From an uncultured Pelagibacteraceae bacterium (lineage in GTDB: Bacteria; Pseudomonadota; Alphaproteobacteria; Pelagibacterales; Pelagibacteraceae), in contig CACJHW010000002.1 of NCBI GenBank assembly GCA_902593285.1, positions 186,001 to 250,000 of the forward strand: a DNA stretch of 64,000 bases, read 5' to 3'. Each line of letters starts with the position of its first letter. The stretch's first letter is position 1. Positions 4,310 to 21,848 of the stretch are shown piece by piece. Made by a program: the position numbers and the translations under genes. The notes beneath the pieces are model-generated. The model worked only from the letters and a program-made list of their open reading frames with translations, was not told the DNA's origin and did no database searches.

Positions 4310-4664
4310 GCCAGATAAATGACTTATCGCTTTAAGTTTGCTTAAAGAGGAAAGTCCGGGCTCTACAAGGACACAGTGCCAGGTAATGCCTGGCGGGGGA
4401 AACCCTAGGGATAGTGCCACAGAAAATAAACCGCCATAACATGGCAAGGGTGAAAAGGTGTGGTAAGAGCACACCGGTTCTATTGGTAACAATGAACGCT
4501 GGAAAACCCCACTGGGAGCAAGACTAAGTAGAGATGACATTGTTTAATAACTAAAAGCCGTCCTTGGCTAGTCATCAGGGTTAGTTGCTTGAGCTTAAGA
4601 GTGATCTTGAGCCTAGATAAATGATAAGTTTAAACGACAGAACCCGGCTTATAGTTTATCTGGC
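4310..4664 (+). ncRNA. rnpB: RNase P RNA, bacterial type A
   Basis: Recognised from its conserved core: GAGGAAAGTCCGGGCT near the 5' end, GGTGAAAAGGTGTGGTAAGAGCACACCG in the middle, and ACAGAACCCGGCTTA near the 3' end. The ends pair (GCCAGATAAA at 4310 with TTTATCTGGC ending at 4664), forming helix P1. This RNA is the catalytic part of RNase P, which trims tRNA 5' leaders. The ORF on the - strand at 4253-4540 is only a shadow of this RNA. Boundaries come from the P1 pairing and could be off by a few bases. Confidence 0.96.
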
Positions 4665-4766
4665 AAACTTATTCACACTATAAAATTTTACATTAATCAA
4701 ATGTTCTTATTTAGATTGAATATTGAGTCTCTTATGTTTTTTTTTAATTTTTAATAGAAAGCAAAT

Positions 4767-4782
4767 CCTCTTAGAAAAGAGG
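4767..4782 (+). other. Small hairpin between rnpB and mraZ
   Basis: CCTCTT-AGAA-AAGAGG folds into a 6-bp stem about 100 bp after rnpB. It is not followed by a clean T-run, so it is a weak terminator candidate at best. The rest of 4665-4847 shows no gene or structure that I can support. Confidence 0.25.
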
Positions 4783-4847
4783 TCTCTAATAAATTTTAGT
4801 ATTAAAAAAACCTCTATCTATAGGCAGAATTTAACTAAATTCAGAGT

Positions 4848-4876
4848 TTGACTATCATTTCAAATACCCATATATT
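4848..4876 (+). promoter_or_regulatory. Sigma70-type promoter of the dcw cluster
   Basis: TTGACT at 4848-4853 and TATATT at 4871-4876 each match the sigma70 consensus at five of six positions, with exactly 17 bp between them. The predicted start is near 4883, about 36 bp before the mraZ ATG. It is the best promoter I can see upstream of the whole mraZ-ligA run. A second TATATT ten bases downstream (4881-4886) belongs to the repeat described in the next entry. Confidence 0.7.
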
Positions 4877-4890
4877 CCCATATATTCCCA
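4867..4890 (-). promoter_or_regulatory. Three MraZ boxes (TGGG repeats, 10-bp period)
   Basis: The + strand reads CCCA at 4867, 4877 and 4887, which is TGGG three times on the - strand with a strict 10-bp period and the spacer AATATA conserved. MraZ of E. coli is known to bind TGGGN repeats separated by 5 nt, the same period, just upstream of mraZ. Here the boxes overlap the -10 element and the predicted start site, which suits autorepression of the cluster by MraZ. The orientation and the assignment are by pattern only. Confidence 0.72.
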
Positions 4891-4918
4891 ATTATGGAAT
4901 TAATAAAATTAAAATTAT

Positions 4919-5386
4919 ATGTTTTTATCTACTTACGAAAACAAATTAGACAAAAAGGGGAGAGTGTCTGTGCCTGCTAGTTTCAGGTCATATGTATCAA
5001 ATTTAGGATACAATGGTGTTATTTGTTATCCATCTTTTAATAACCCCTCAATAGAAGCATGTTCTCAAGATAGAATTGAAAAAATTTCTTCAGCAATTGA
5101 CACTTTAAATCCTTTTGAGGAAAAAAGAGATTACTTTGCTACATCAATATTAGCCGAAAGTACTAATTTACAATTCGATAGTGAAGGTAGAATTTCACTT
5201 TCATCAAAATTATTAAAACATGCAAAAATAAAAAATAGCATGTTATTTGTTGGTCAAGGTCAAACATTCCAAATATGGGAACCAGCAGCATTTGAAAAAT
5301 TTAAGACATCAGCAAGAAAAAAAGCAAATATAAATCGAGCAAGTCTTAAATGGGAAAAACACTTAAACAACAATGAGGGGAAATAA
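4919..5386 (+). CDS. mraZ: Transcriptional regulator MraZ
   Basis: A 155-residue double-repeat AbrB/SpoVT-like DNA-binding protein. The N-terminal [20 protein letters not shown] and the second repeat near residue 80 ([17 protein letters not shown]) carry the family's DxxGRxxxP-type loops. MraZ proteins form rings and bind TGGG repeats at the start of the division and wall cluster; three such repeats lie 29 bp upstream of this ATG. In most bacteria mraZ is followed by rsmH (mraW), but here ftsZ comes next with a one-base gap. Length is normal for the family. Confidence 0.96.
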
Positions 5387-5387
5387 G

Positions 5388-6872
5388 ATGACAATTAACT
5401 TTAAAGCACCAGAAATTAAAGAGTTACAGCCACGACTATTAGTATTGGGAGTTGGTGGAGCAGGCGGAAATGCAATCAATGAAATGATAGAAAATAATCT
5501 ACAAGGGGTAGAATTTATTGCTGTAAATACTGATGCTCAAGACTTAAAGCTAAGTAAAGCAAAAACAAGAATTCAAATTGGTTTAAATTTAACAAAAGGT
5601 TTAGGAGCAGGAGCAAAACTTGACATTGGTCAGGCTGCTGCTGATGAATCTTTAAATGAAATTGTAAATACACTTCAAGGTGCAAATATGGTTTTTATTG
5701 CAGCTGGTATGGGTGGTGGAACGGGCACTGGTGCTGCACATGTCATCGCGAGAGCTGCTAAAGAATTAAATATCTTAACTGTGGGTGTTGTGACTCTTCC
5801 ATTTTTATATGAAGGCCCCTCTAGAATGAGAAGAGCACAACAAGGTTTGGAAGAACTAAGAAAACATGTTGATACCATAATTGTTATTCCTAACCAAAAC
5901 CTATTTAAAATAGCTAATGAACAGACAACTTTTGAAGAGTCATTTAACTTATCAAATAATGTTTTAATGCATGGTGTTCAAAGTATCACTGATTTGATGG
6001 TTAGACCCGGATTAATCAATTTAGATTTTGCTGATGTTGAAACTGTTATGGCAGCAATGGGTAAAGCCATGATGGGAACTGGTGAAGCGGAAGGAGAAGG
6101 TAGAGCTCTTAAAGCAGCAGAGATGGCAATCAGTAATCCATTAATAGATGATTATACTTTAAAAGGTGCAAAGGGTTTATTAGTAAATATTACTGGTGGT
6201 AAAGATCTTAAACTTTTTGAAGTTGATGAAGCTGTAAATAAAGTAAGAGCAGAAGTTGATCCTGAAGCAGAATTAATTATTGGTGCGATTACTGACACAG
6301 AACTTGATGGAAAAATGAGAGTTTCAATTGTTGCAACTTCTTTAGACGGTCAGCAGCCTGAGTCTAAATCAGTTGTGAATATGGTTCACAGAATCCAAAA
6401 CCGTAATCCAGGTTACTCTGATTTTTCAAACATAGGATCATCTCAATCATTCAATTTTTCAAATACAATAACAACAAACCCAATTACACATGGCGCCAAT
6501 GCTTTAAAACTTGAAAATGAGATTATCCAAGAGCAACATGCTGAAAGTTCTCATAATCAAATTATGAATGAAGAGGTTGTTCAAAATACTAGCATGGATA
6601 CTGAAAGTATAGTTGAAGACAATTCAGTTAATGAAATGGAAAAATCTTTTGCACAAGAGGCTTTGGAAACTAATCATGAAGAAACCCAAGAGAATAATAT
6701 TGATGAAAAGGTTTCTAATGATCTTAAAGAATTCGGAGTTGATTCTGATGCGCCAGATTTATTTAGTTCAGAAACCGAAACCTCAAGTTCAGATGAACTT
6801 TTATCTTCTGACAATGAGGAAGAAGAAGATGATCTTGAGATACCAGCATTCTTAAGAAGACAAAAAAATTAA
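5388..6872 (+). CDS. ftsZ: Cell division protein FtsZ
   Basis: FtsZ, the tubulin-like GTPase that forms the division ring (494 residues). The start is the ATG at 5388, preceded by GAGGGG at good distance, rather than the track's 5373, which lies inside mraZ. The opening [15 protein letters not shown] is typical of alphaproteobacterial FtsZ. The nucleotide motifs are [18 protein letters not shown] (tubulin signature, near residue 105) and NVDFAD-like NLDFAD. A long acidic linker (about residues 340-480) ends in the conserved C-terminal peptide [11 protein letters not shown], which normally docks FtsA and other tethers. The position is odd: ftsZ normally follows ftsQ-ftsA, but here it is the second gene of the cluster. 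Confidence 0.97.
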
Positions 6873-6890: not shown

Positions 6891-7901
6891 ATGGACGCCA
6901 CCATAGTACCGAAAATGCAAAAGCATTATCCGGTACTGCTAAAAGAAATTATTAGCGTTATTTCCCCTCAACATGGTGGCACATTTATTGATTGTACTTT
7001 CGGTCAAGGCGGTTATTCCAAAAAAATTTTAGATTTTAAAAATACAAAAGTTGTAGCTTTAGATAGAGATTTAGAGAGTGCAAAAATTGCTAATCAATTT
7101 AAAGAAAATTTCGATGATAGATTTATATTTAAAAATATTAAATTTAGTCAGTTAAGTAATTTAAAACTCAAAAACGAAAACATAAGAGGAGTAATTTTTG
7201 ATCTTGGTTATTCCTACACTCAAATAAAAGACCCTCAAAAAGGATTATCATTCAATAATAGTGGTAAATTAAATATGCAGTTAGGATTAAATAATTATTC
7301 AGCAGAAGATGTAATCAATAAACTCGATGAAAAAGAATTAGAAAGGATTTTTAAATTTTTTGGAGATGAAAAAGAAGCAAAATTTATTGCGCGAAATATC
7401 ATAAAAGAAAGATCTAAAAATCAAATTGATACTAAATCTTTAGTAGAAATTATTGACAAATCAAAAAAAAGGAAAAATTTCAAAGTTCATAATGCAACCA
7501 AGGTGTTTCAGGCACTTAGAATATTCGTAAATAAAGAAATAAGCGAATTAATTTATGGACTTATAAACGCCACTAAAGTTTTAAGAAAAGGGGGGGTTTT
7601 AGGGGTAGTTACATTTCATTCTTTAGAGGATAAAATAGTAAAGTATTTTTTTAAAAGTCTTTCTGAAAATAAAAGTATTTCACGATATAGTCCTGTTGTA
7701 AAACAAGCAGATACATTATTTAATTTGATTCAAAAAAAACCAATAACTCCTTCGGATGAAGAGTTAAGAGAAAATCCACCATCTAGATCTGCTAAATTTA
7801 GATACGCAATAAAAAAAACTGATTTTTATAATTTTGATACTGATATAAAGGAGCAATTTAGAAATTATATTGAAATTGAAAACTATGGAGACAAACTGTG
7901 A
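6891..7901 (+). CDS. rsmH: 16S rRNA (cytosine-1402-N4)-methyltransferase RsmH (MraW)
   Basis: An S-adenosylmethionine-dependent methyltransferase of 336 residues that modifies C1402 of 16S rRNA in the ribosomal P site. Seen: [10 protein letters not shown] near the start, the SAM-binding [39 protein letters not shown] and [15 protein letters not shown], in the family order. The ATG at 6891 is kept; an in-frame ATG at 6915 (MQKHYPVLL) would also give a normal protein. It sits 18 bp after ftsZ, and its stop overlaps the GTG of the ftsL-like gene (GTGA). Confidence 0.96.
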
Positions 7902-9893: not shown

Positions 9894-12737
9894 ATGCTTC
9901 TAGGAAACTACTTTGATAACATAAATAAAAATTATAGAAAATTTTCTTTTTCAGGAATTTCATTTGATACGAAGAGTATTAAAAAAAATAATATTTTTTT
10001 TGCAATCAAAGGAAATACTATTGATGGTAATAAATTTATTCCCAAAGCAATAAAAAAAGGATCTAAAATTATTGTAACTGAAAAAAAAGTAAATTTACTC
10101 CAAAATGGAATTTTATATATTCACGCAAAGAATATAAGAAAATTATTAGCTGAAACAGCTTTTAAAATTTATAATAAAAAACCAAAAAATTTAATCGCAG
10201 TTACAGGTACAAATGGAAAATCGTCAGTTTCTGATTTTTACTATCAAATATTAAAATTAAATAATAAAAAAGCTGCTTCAATTGGCACATTAGGTGTTAA
10301 ATCAAAAAGAATTAATTTGAATTTATCTAATACCACAATAGATCCAATTAAATTGGCTAAAATTTTGACTAAGTTAAAAGCCCAAAAAGTAGAAAATGTT
10401 ATTATGGAAGCCTCAAGTCATGGTTTAAAACAAAATAGATTAGATGGTTTGAAGTTTAATTCGGCTATATTTACTAATCTATCCCAGGATCATCTTGATT
10501 ATCATAAAAATTTAAAAAATTATTTAAAAGCAAAACTTTATTTATTTGAAAACTTAATTCAAAAAAAAGGCAATGTAATTACAGATCAATTAATACCAGA
10601 GTTTAAAAACATAAAAAAAATTACAATTAATAAGAAATTAAAATTGCATACACTAAATGATAAGAAAAATAATCTAGAGCTTTTATCTCATAACTTTAAA
10701 GGAGAGGGGCAAGTTTTCAGAATTAAATTAAATAGTTTAATACTGGATCTGAATTTAAATTTAATAGGAAAAGTACAATTAAAAAATGTTTTAATGGCAA
10801 TAATTGCAGCAAAATATAGCGGTGTTAGTTTAAATAAAATTTTAAATACAATTCCAAAATTGAAATCAGTTGAAGGAAGATTTGAAAAAATAGGTAAAAT
10901 TAAAAATCAATCAAAAGTAATTCTCGATTATGCTCATACGCCTGATGCTTTAAAAACGTGTCTTTTAAATCTTAGAGAACAATTTCCTACTAAAGCAATC
11001 TCAGTGCTATTCGGTTGTGGTGGAAATAGAGATCAAAATAAAAGATCAAAAATGGGGAAAATAGCTAGTGATTTTGCAGATAGTATCATTCTTACAAATG
11101 ATAACCCTAGATTTGAAAATCCTCAAAAAATAAGAAGAGATATAAAAAAAGGGATCAAAAAAAAAAAAATTACCGAAACTTCTAATAGAGCAATAGCAAT
11201 AAATCAAGCTATTCATAATTTGAATTCAGGTGATATTTTATTAGTCGCTGGAAAAGGCCATGAGAAAACACAAGATATTGGAAATAAGAAAATTTTTTTT
11301 TCTGATAGAAAAGTAATTTTAAATGCTATTAAGAATAAAAATAATAATTTATCAAATAATTTAAAATTAAATGTGGTTAAAGAGGCAGTTAAAAATAAAA
11401 AATTATCTCTCTCCACATCTTTAAAAACGGCAAGAATTAATTCTCAAGAAGTTATTAAAAATGATATTTTTTTTGCTATTAGAGGAAAAAAAAATGATGG
11501 TAATAAATATGTTGCACAATCATTCAAGAGAAAAGCATCGTTAGCTGTAGTAAACAAAATTCAAAATAAATTAAATAAAAGTCGTCAGATTAAAGTTAAA
11601 GATACTTTAAAATTCTTAACAGATGTTTCAAAAACTTTTAGAAAAAGTATTGATACAAATATTATAGCTATCACAGGTAGTTGTGGCAAAACTACACTTA
11701 AAGAATTATTGGGCAATGTATTAAGTAAAATTACGAAAGTAAGTATTTCTCCAAAATCTTATAATAATAAATTTGGGGTACCTTTGAGTCTTTTTAATTT
11801 AAAACAAAATGATGAATTTGGAATTTTAGAAGTTGGAATGGATAAAAAAGGTGAAATTGATTATTTATCAAATATTATAGAACCAGATGTTGGAGTAATA
11901 ACAAATATAAATTATGCACACGCTAAAAATTTTAAAAATATTAAACAAATTGCTTTAGCAAAATCTGAAATTATTAACAACATTAAACCTAACGGGTATG
12001 TTGTGTTGAATGCAGATGATAGTTTTTTTCAATTACATAAAAAAATTGCCAAAAAAAAGAAAATTAAAGTTATTTCTTTTGGTATTAAAAGTCAGAAAGC
12101 AGATATTAAATTAATTAATATAAAGATTTTTGGAAAAAAATTTAAACTTAATATTAAGTTAAATAATAAAAAAAAGCATTTCATATTATCAAACGATTTT
12201 CAAAACAATATATACAATACACTTGCCGCTTTAGCAGTTATCAGTATTTATAAAAATATATTTAAATTAAATGAAAATATTTTTCTCAATTTCAAAATTC
12301 CTGAGGGAAGAGGGGATTATTCTGTATTAAAAATTAATAATAAAAAAATTAATTTAATTGATCAAAGTTATAATTCGAATCCTCTATCATTAAAATCAGC
12401 AATAAAAAATTTCGACAAAATAAACTCCAAGAAATCAAATAAATATTTACTAATTGGCGACATGTTAGAGCTAGGTAGTCATTCTAAAAAACTTCACAAA
12501 TCTATTGCCCCAATAATAAATCAAACCAAGATAGATAAGGTATTTGTAAAAGGAAAATTGGCTTCAATAATATTTGAAAATATCTCAAAAGCTAAAAAAG
12601 GCAGGATTTTATTTAACAAATCTCAAATTATTGAATTGATTAGAAAAGATTTAAACAATAATGATTATTTAATGATTAAAGCCTCACTTGCGACAGGTTT
12701 CAACGACATAGTGAAAGATCTGAAAGGGTTACATTAA
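9894..12737 (+). CDS. murE/murF: Bifunctional MurE-MurF ligase fusion
   Basis: One uninterrupted 947-codon ORF joins two Mur ligases. Residues about 1-480 are MurE: TGTNGKSSVSDF P-loop near 103, EASSHGLKQNRLDG, LSQDHLDYH, LDYAHTPDAL, and DNPRFENP, whose DNPR points to meso-diaminopimelate as the added amino acid. Residues about 490-947 are MurF: FFAIRGKKNDGNKY, P-loop TGSCGKTTLKELLG near 594, YNNKFGVPLSL, DQSYNSNPLS and GDMLELG. The fused enzyme would add DAP and then D-Ala-D-Ala to UDP-MurNAc-dipeptide in the cytosol. A lysine- and asparagine-rich linker joins the halves. The stop is immediately followed by the mraY ATG. Confidence 0.95.
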   Translation: MLLGNYFDNINKNYRKFSFSGISFDTKSIKKNNIFFAIKGNTIDGNKFIPKAIKKGSKIIVTEKKVNLLQNGILYIHAKNIRKLLAETAFKIYNKKPKNLIAVTGTNGKSSVSDFYYQILKLNNKKAASIGTLGVKSKRINLNLSNTTIDPIKLAKILTKLKAQKVENVIMEASSHGLKQNRLDGLKFNSAIFTNLSQDHLDYHKNLKNYLKAKLYLFENLIQKKGNVITDQLIPEFKNIKKITINKKLKLHTLNDKKNNLELLSHNFKGEGQVFRIKLNSLILDLNLNLIGKVQLKNVLMAIIAAKYSGVSLNKILNTIPKLKSVEGRFEKIGKIKNQSKVILDYAHTPDALKTCLLNLREQFPTKAISVLFGCGGNRDQNKRSKMGKIASDFADSIILTNDNPRFENPQKIRRDIKKGIKKKKITETSNRAIAINQAIHNLNSGDILLVAGKGHEKTQDIGNKKIFFSDRKVILNAIKNKNNNLSNNLKLNVVKEAVKNKKLSLSTSLKTARINSQEVIKNDIFFAIRGKKNDGNKYVAQSFKRKASLAVVNKIQNKLNKSRQIKVKDTLKFLTDVSKTFRKSIDTNIIAITGSCGKTTLKELLGNVLSKITKVSISPKSYNNKFGVPLSLFNLKQNDEFGILEVGMDKKGEIDYLSNIIEPDVGVITNINYAHAKNFKNIKQIALAKSEIINNIKPNGYVVLNADDSFFQLHKKIAKKKKIKVISFGIKSQKADIKLINIKIFGKKFKLNIKLNNKKKHFILSNDFQNNIYNTLAALAVISIYKNIFKLNENIFLNFKIPEGRGDYSVLKINNKKINLIDQSYNSNPLSLKSAIKNFDKINSKKSNKYLLIGDMLELGSHSKKLHKSIAPIINQTKIDKVFVKGKLASIIFENISKAKKGRILFNKSQIIELIRKDLNNNDYLMIKASLATGFNDIVKDLKGLH

Positions 12738-20502: not shown

Positions 20503-21154
20503 AAAAATTCTAATTTATTTCTTTTTATTAATAATTTTTTCGTCAATTGGTAACGACAAAATTAATAATTTTAAATTTAAAAAAATAGAAAATATAAATA
20601 TTTTTGGATTAGATGAAAAAAATAATCAAATTCTTTTGAATAAATTGAAAGATTTGAATTTAGGAAATATTTTTTTTATTAATAAAAAAAAAATTGAAAA
20701 ATTGATTAATTCAAACTCTTTAATTGAGAGCTATATAGTATTTAAAGAATATCCATCCACTTTAAATATTAGAATTGATAAAACGAAATTTTTTGCAAAA
20801 ATAAATGATAATGGTAAAAATTATCTCATTGGATCAAATGGTAAATTAACCCTAATTGACTCTGGTTACAATCAATTACCTTATATTTTTGGTAAACCTA
20901 ACGTTCAAGAATTTTTAAAATTTAAAAAAATTATTGATAGGTCTAAATTTTCATATAATGAAATAAAAAATATATATTTTTTTTCATCAAAAAGATGGGA
21001 CTTAAAGTTTCATGACAATATTTTATTAAAATTACCAAATAGTTTAACACAAGAAACTTTGGATAATTTGTATGATTTTTTAGAAAATTATAATGGAAAA
21101 AACTTTAATATTGTTGATGCAAGATTGGAAAATAAGATTGTTTTAGATGAATAA
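20483..21154 (+). CDS. ftsQ: Division protein FtsQ, POTRA domain
   Basis: A 223-residue bitopic membrane protein: basic start, one helix at about residues 8-20 (ILIYFFLLIIFSS), then a POTRA-like domain (IENINIFGLDEKNNQILLNKL; IVFKEYPSTLNIRID) and a beta region with YLIGSNGKLTLID. FtsQ recruits FtsL/FtsB and links late division proteins to the ring. It is short for the family, lacking the long cytosolic tail of many alphaproteobacterial FtsQs. It overlaps ddl by 20 bp and the following gene by 8 bp. Confidence 0.9.
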   Translation: MHQRKNKKILIYFFLLIIFSSIGNDKINNFKFKKIENINIFGLDEKNNQILLNKLKDLNLGNIFFINKKKIEKLINSNSLIESYIVFKEYPSTLNIRIDKTKFFAKINDNGKNYLIGSNGKLTLIDSGYNQLPYIFGKPNVQEFLKFKKIIDRSKFSYNEIKNIYFFSSKRWDLKFHDNILLKLPNSLTQETLDNLYDFLENYNGKNFNIVDARLENKIVLDE

Positions 21155-21848
21155 AGAGAATGAATTACAATGTTACTTAAGTGTTTCTCCAAATAAATAT
21201 GGAATATATTTGTTTGATACAAAAAATTTAACAAATTTATATAAAGAGGAAATTATCTTGAATAATGATACGAACTATCAAAATCATGATAAATTAAAAA
21301 AATTTCTTGATGATAATATATTTAAAATTGAAAAATTAAGCGGAAAATTTATAGAAAGTATATATCTTGTACTTGAAGATAAAAAAATTTTTAATCTAGA
21401 AATTGGAATTAAAAAAAAAAATTACAATATTTCAGTCACAAAAGAATATTTAGAAAATTCACTTGTTGAAGTTAAAGATTTATTTAGAGAGAGTTATCAT
21501 AACCAAGAAATTCTTCATATGATGATAAATAAATATTTTATGAATGGTGAGCCTTATTCATTATTTGTAGAAAATTTAAAAACTGACAATTTTGGTTTGG
21601 AAATTAATTTTAAATCAATTTCAAGAAATACTATTTATGATTTAAATAAAATTTTAGAAAATTATCAAATTAAAATAACAAAATTTCTAGACGGAAGTTA
21701 TGTTAAAGCTAATTTTTCAAAGGATATAGAGTTAGCAGAAATGTCTTATAAAATTTTGAGTGGCTATAATCAAAATGAAGTTATTTTTGTTCCAAAAAAT
21801 ACTAGAAAATTAGCTTTTTTTGAAAAATTTTTTCAACTATTTAGTTAA
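21147..21848 (+). CDS. Truncated FtsA-like protein without ATPase and FtsZ-binding subdomains
   Basis: A 233-residue protein in the exact ftsA slot (after ftsQ, before lpxC). Compared by eye with FtsA, residues about 8-75 follow subdomain 1A, but the actin phosphate-1 loop (DIGT type) is replaced by LSVSPNKYG. Then IESIYLVLEDKKI and VTKEYLENSLVEV match the run into 1C. EILHMMINKYFMNGEP with NFGLEINFKSISRN matches the SHS2 subdomain 1C (E. coli: VLHVIPQEYAIDYQE). The 2A/2B region, with its DxGGGT and GG motifs and the FtsZ-binding face, is absent. The last residues, LAFFEKFFQLFS, form an amphipathic helix like the FtsA membrane anchor. It probably keeps membrane and divisome contacts but cannot bind ATP in the actin way. 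No broken remainder of ftsA lies downstream. Confidence 0.68.
   Translation: MNKENELQCYLSVSPNKYGIYLFDTKNLTNLYKEEIILNNDTNYQNHDKLKKFLDDNIFKIEKLSGKFIESIYLVLEDKKIFNLEIGIKKKNYNISVTKEYLENSLVEVKDLFRESYHNQEILHMMINKYFMNGEPYSLFVENLKTDNFGLEINFKSISRNTIYDLNKILENYQIKITKFLDGSYVKANFSKDIELAEMSYKILSGYNQNEVIFVPKNTRKLAFFEKFFQLFS

Follow-up and report, generated by a model that had tools for sequence, protein, structure and literature searches.

The mraZ promoter of an uncultured SAR11 bacterium (Pelagibacteraceae) carries three TGGG-type boxes in inverted orientation, interlaced with the elements of the core promoter. As far as sequence can establish it, this array is a genuine operator, intact and under strong conservation, which belongs to a known type of circuit in a variant layout. 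The best reading, and a likely one, is that MraZ represses its own synthesis by occluding the core promoter, with ftsZ inside the loop. The window analyzed here is a stretch of 64,000 nucleotides, and the features of the locus are collected in Table 1.

Table 1. Features of the mraZ-ftsZ locus, in window coordinates.
Feature	Position	Strand	Basis or remark
RNase P RNA gene (rnpB)	4311-4667	+	Rfam RF00010, 293 bits; upstream boundary of the region
-35 element TTGACT	4848-4853	+	sequence read; TTGAC conserved across the genus
candidate MraZ box 1	4867-4870	-	CCCA on +, TGGG on -
-10 element TATATT	4871-4876	+	sequence read; T1, A2 and T6 invariant
candidate MraZ box 2	4877-4880	-	CCCA on +, TGGG on -
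predicted transcription start	4883	+	7 nt past the -10, in linker 2; inferred from promoter spacing
candidate MraZ box 3	4887-4890	-	CCCA on +, TGGG on -
mraZ, 155 aa	4919-5386	+	Pfam MraZ, E=1e-21
ftsZ	5388-6872	+	Pfam Tubulin and FtsZ_C
mraW (rsmH)	6891-7901	+	Pfam Methyltransf_5; displaced to third gene

The original prediction placed a near-consensus promoter (TTGACT-17-TATATT) at 4848-4890, overlapping three TGGG repeats of strict 10-bp period on the minus strand, and the sequence agrees in every detail. The two hexamers are separated by a spacer of 17 nt, the CCCA boxes begin at exactly 10-bp intervals (4867, 4877 and 4887), and the 6 bp that separate box 1 from box 2 are precisely the -10 hexamer. 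With a transcription start near 4883, the boxes would span roughly -16 to +8. The hexamers and their spacing are thus present, but the match as such does not go beyond chance: 5 promoter-like sites were found where 4.8 were expected from shuffles of 4600-5400. Promoter hexamers alone are therefore no better than chance, and promoter strength was discarded as a line of evidence. A second TATATT (4881-4886) is less constrained than the first and has no -35 at the usual spacing except a weak TTCAAA.

The prediction had also singled out conservation of the repeats in close relatives as the point to be checked. Loci were drawn from GTDB genomes together with samples at every level from genus through family, order and class to phylum, and identical upstreams were removed before the genus-level regions were counted. 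All 12 box bases are present in 124 of the 124 distinct genus-level upstream regions (one of which, L110, is a sister-genus locus), while only about 0.08% of shuffled upstreams reach even 11 of 12. TTGAC is conserved in 122 of 123 genus loci and, with few exceptions, stands 19 nt 5' of box 1. The first, second and sixth bases of the -10 (T, A and T) are invariant in 124/124 and the middle three vary, so that linker 1 always reads TAnnnT; linker 2 varies differently. As a sequence pattern, TAnnnT with free middle positions is the signature of a -10 element. Mean information is 2.0 bits in the boxes (a value partly inflated because the loci were anchored on the best triple, the fair figure being the count at 12/12), 1.95 bits in TTGAC and 2.0 bits in the T/A/T of the -10, as against 0.52 in the spacer, 0.58 in the upstream region and 0.88 in the leader. 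A chance repeat in AT-rich DNA might be suspected from the failure of the promoter hexamers to outdo shuffles, but complete conservation across the genus beside variable flanks, together with the uniqueness of the triple in the genome (see below), led to the rejection of this idea, whose probability is vanishingly small.

The array extends beyond the genus. At least 11 of 12 box bases are found at 22/22 loci of the same family outside the genus and at 15/15 loci of a second Pelagibacterales family. The loci of that second family (L224-L243) have four or five in-phase boxes and no TTGAC; instead, TAGACA or TTTACTT recurs directly 5' of the first box, implying that the promoter there differs. 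One part of the genus (L014, L021, L045 and similar loci) has a further TGGG, of reverse direction, past box 3 and some 24 nt ahead of the mraZ start; its distance from box 3 is often, though not always, 10 nt. It could be an inverted half-site, the fourth of the array, or belong to the leader.

The triple box occurs at one site in the 1.04-Mb genome, even with one mismatch allowed, whereas a reversed control pattern has 2 matches at one mismatch. Exactly one triple site is found in 48 of 61 genus genomes and two sites in none, with 0 matches to the reversed control across all 61; most of the 13 genomes that have no site are incomplete, the three highest completeness values among them being 86, 87 and 90%. 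A wider MraZ regulon in this genome was considered and rejected, since the triple is unique and the 3 exact two-box sites elsewhere do not exceed the reversed control.

The motif also goes with the gene. In a sample of 40 alphaproteobacterial genomes outside Pelagibacterales, the two-box motif CCCATGNTATCCCA is present in 20 of the 23 with mraZ and 1 of the 17 lacking it (Fisher p=3e-7, shared ancestry uncorrected). The match in the mraZ-less genome (G268) was dismissed as chance, as no mraZ follows it and no third box stands in phase. An MraZ operator can be recognized by at least three TGGG-type cores at a 10-bp period, by position in the promoter region of mraZ and by co-occurrence with mraZ, and the array has all three properties. 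The mraZ product likewise has the marks of its family: two stretches match the MraZ domain (Pfam PF02381), both DxxGR motifs are present (DKKGR and DSEGR), and the structural relatives in the PDB are 9qlr, 9qlg, 9sx6 and 1n0e. The TIGR00242 cut-off was reached in none of the 142 alphaproteobacterial genomes searched. In the literature searched, we found no paper describing MraZ sites in Alphaproteobacteria or SAR11, and a paper on the R. sphaeroides dcw leader does not mention them. No report of direct MraZ binding in any alphaproteobacterium was found there either, and one might ask whether the CCCA array instead serves some other regulator or is a structural part of the promoter. This is very improbable, because the motif is missing from 16 of the 17 mraZ-less genomes, the array lies upstream of mraZ, and its core and period are common to the E. 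coli site.

The array is inverted in Alphaproteobacteria relative to E. coli and the other Proteobacteria sampled, whose boxes are for the most part downstream of the -10. Among 87 distinct loci of the class, 79 have CCCA, 1 has TGGG and 7 are unclear; in 30 loci sampled from the phylum outside this class, the corresponding numbers are 0, 24 and 6, and the coding strand of E. coli itself reads TGGG. With the first T of TTGAC as the reference point, the array occupies 19-43 in the SAR11 genus and 38-62 in E. coli. In other alphaproteobacteria, it mostly begins between -14 and 7 and ends at 30-41, while outside the class it mostly ends at 52-63. The SAR11 array is thus inverted and about 19 bp further upstream by the E. 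coli standard; E. coli-like orientation was not treated as defining, because the whole class differs in the same way. The 10-bp period that had been predicted to equal that of E. coli MraZ sites does so, and the TGGG core is the same, but the inverted orientation and the more upstream position had been missed. The notion of a circuit surviving in a streamlined genome needs a similar adjustment, as the architecture is not a survivor in SAR11 only: it is shared across the Alphaproteobacteria as a class. No description of the inverted array, or of the SAR11 mraZ-ftsZ order, was found in the literature; subscription papers lie mostly outside that search, and priority is uncertain.

The inversion constrains the mechanism. 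Opposite orientations across two large groups favor steric blocking and argue against any mechanism in which MraZ must touch polymerase in one set way. This bears on the possibility that MraZ binds the boxes yet acts as an activator of the operon: overexpression of MraZ raised FtsZ in the mycoplasma M. gallisepticum, where the protein has been called an activator (PMC8475190, PMC7761207), a result that also counts against autorepression. Activation at the SAR11 promoter nevertheless seems unlikely, as an oligomer on boxes that lie over the -10 and the predicted start should keep polymerase out, and as the MraZ of M. genitalium represses (PMC8475190).

The prediction that ftsZ follows mraZ was correct, and the arrangement is fixed: ftsZ is directly 3' of mraZ in every Pelagibacterales locus long enough for the test. 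Its start codon is 1 nt past the mraZ stop. Outside Pelagibacterales, mraW is next after mraZ in 85 of 87 testable class loci, in 30/30 phylum loci and in E. coli. One of the two class exceptions (L171) has neither gene next. In the other (L192, genome G257), which belongs to the class and is placed outside Pelagibacterales, ftsZ comes immediately behind mraZ, so the rearrangement may predate Pelagibacterales or have arisen twice. The assembly, 79% complete, yielded a single FtsZ, and no further ftsZ is present in the window between the ftsA position and lpxC. A consensus scan, which can overlook weak promoters, found no plus-strand promoter-like site from the boxes to the ftsZ start. No terminator-like site was found on the plus strand from rnpB to mraZ, and polymerase from upstream could thus read into mraZ.

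Two other genes of the cluster deserve a brief description. A 947-aa ORF at 9894-12737 (+) contains two sets of Mur ligase domains and is an apparent MurE-MurF fusion. The ftsA position, between ftsQ and lpxC, is occupied by a 233-aa protein (21147-21848, +) with no Pfam match. Relatives have proteins of 369-394 aa with a DFGSS-type motif at this position, and both of those tested match Pfam FtsA; the genus forms seen were 13 short and 7 long. In a profile comparison (99.9%), residues 5-190 of the short form align to the long form over its N-terminal half, and the second half is missing save for a C-terminal helix of the FFEKFFQLFS type. The short protein looks like FtsA minus much of the ATP-binding fold, with the membrane anchor retained.

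Characterized MraZ relatives form rings. If MraZ has its operator in the three inverted TGGG boxes, an MraZ oligomer would occupy the whole set from a single face of the helix and cover approximately -16 to +8, including the -10. RNA polymerase would thereby be excluded from the only recognizable promoter of the mraZ-ftsZ-mraW-... operon, and MraZ would limit its own synthesis. FtsZ would be made from the same repressed transcript, its supply being set by negative feedback; ftsZ is placed in the loop because it is the next gene, 1 nt away, with no promoter-like site between. One feedback loop thus probably sets the amount of FtsZ in SAR11. The loop may be weak, however, since loss of mraZ in E. 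coli is without apparent phenotype in the account given in PMC8475190, which cites Eraso 2014, and autorepression is also open to the objections that weak promoters may escape the scan and that upstream polymerase might enter mraZ.

A related possibility is that MraZ binds and represses with negligible effect on FtsZ, owing to post-transcriptional control or unseen promoters. The lack of an apparent phenotype in E. coli, just mentioned, would fit, and post-transcriptional control of ftsZ was suggested by the authors of the B. cenocepacia study (PMC7761207). This is nonetheless rather doubtful, considering that every testable Pelagibacterales locus has ftsZ next to mraZ and codirectional with it, that ftsZ has no nearby promoter-like site and that the assembly yielded no second FtsZ. 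Returning to autorepression with ftsZ in the loop, a broader evolutionary proposal can be made, with about an even chance of being right: Alphaproteobacteria would have inverted the operator and interlaced it with the core promoter, and Pelagibacterales would have moved ftsZ behind mraZ, making MraZ a single-site FtsZ homeostat.

The role of MraZ is unsettled, as the protein acts as a repressor in both E. coli and M. genitalium and has been described as an activator in another mycoplasma, while E. coli can lose it with no apparent phenotype. SAR11 bacteria, which are among the most abundant in the ocean, have one strong invariant site per genome with ftsZ as the next gene, and so the purpose of MraZ becomes testable in a minimal setting.

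The known systems show how far the layout varies. The E. coli Pmra sequence was checked in NC_000913, and the results of Eraso et al. (2014) are given here as represented in citing papers. According to one of these, E. coli MraZ binds TGGG-type repeats and represses the genes from mraZ to murC (PMC7761207). Pmra resembles the SAR11 promoter in having three TGGG cores at a 10-bp period, in the mraZ promoter region at the head of the dcw operon, and the two MraZ proteins have the same motifs. However, the E. coli boxes start 38 nt past the TTGAC start and lie downstream of the -10, whereas those of SAR11 start 19 nt past it and enclose the -10, and mraZ is followed by mraW rather than ftsZ. In B. 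cenocepacia, MraZ binds a PmraBc fragment with 10-bp repeats that overlap the start, and a single promoter serves the operon; these repeats lie past the -10, where E. coli also has them, and have a GTG core, unlike SAR11 (PMC7761207). M. genitalium shares with SAR11 a reduced genome, one chromosomal MraZ motif at the mraZ promoter and ftsZ under MraZ repression, loss of mraZ raising mraW and ftsZ RNA and protein (PMC8475190), but its box is AAAGTG[T/G] and ftsZ is fourth in a mraZ-mraW-MG_223-ftsZ cluster. The closest parallel in layout is provided by the other Alphaproteobacteria (87 loci), with inverted CCCA boxes at a 10-bp period over the -35/-10 region. They usually have 4-5 boxes as opposed to three in the SAR11 genus, and their conserved linker, TGNTAT, has the position of an extended -10 that continues into the following box (TATCCC), unlike the SAR11 genus, in which the full TAnnnT -10 lies within the linker.
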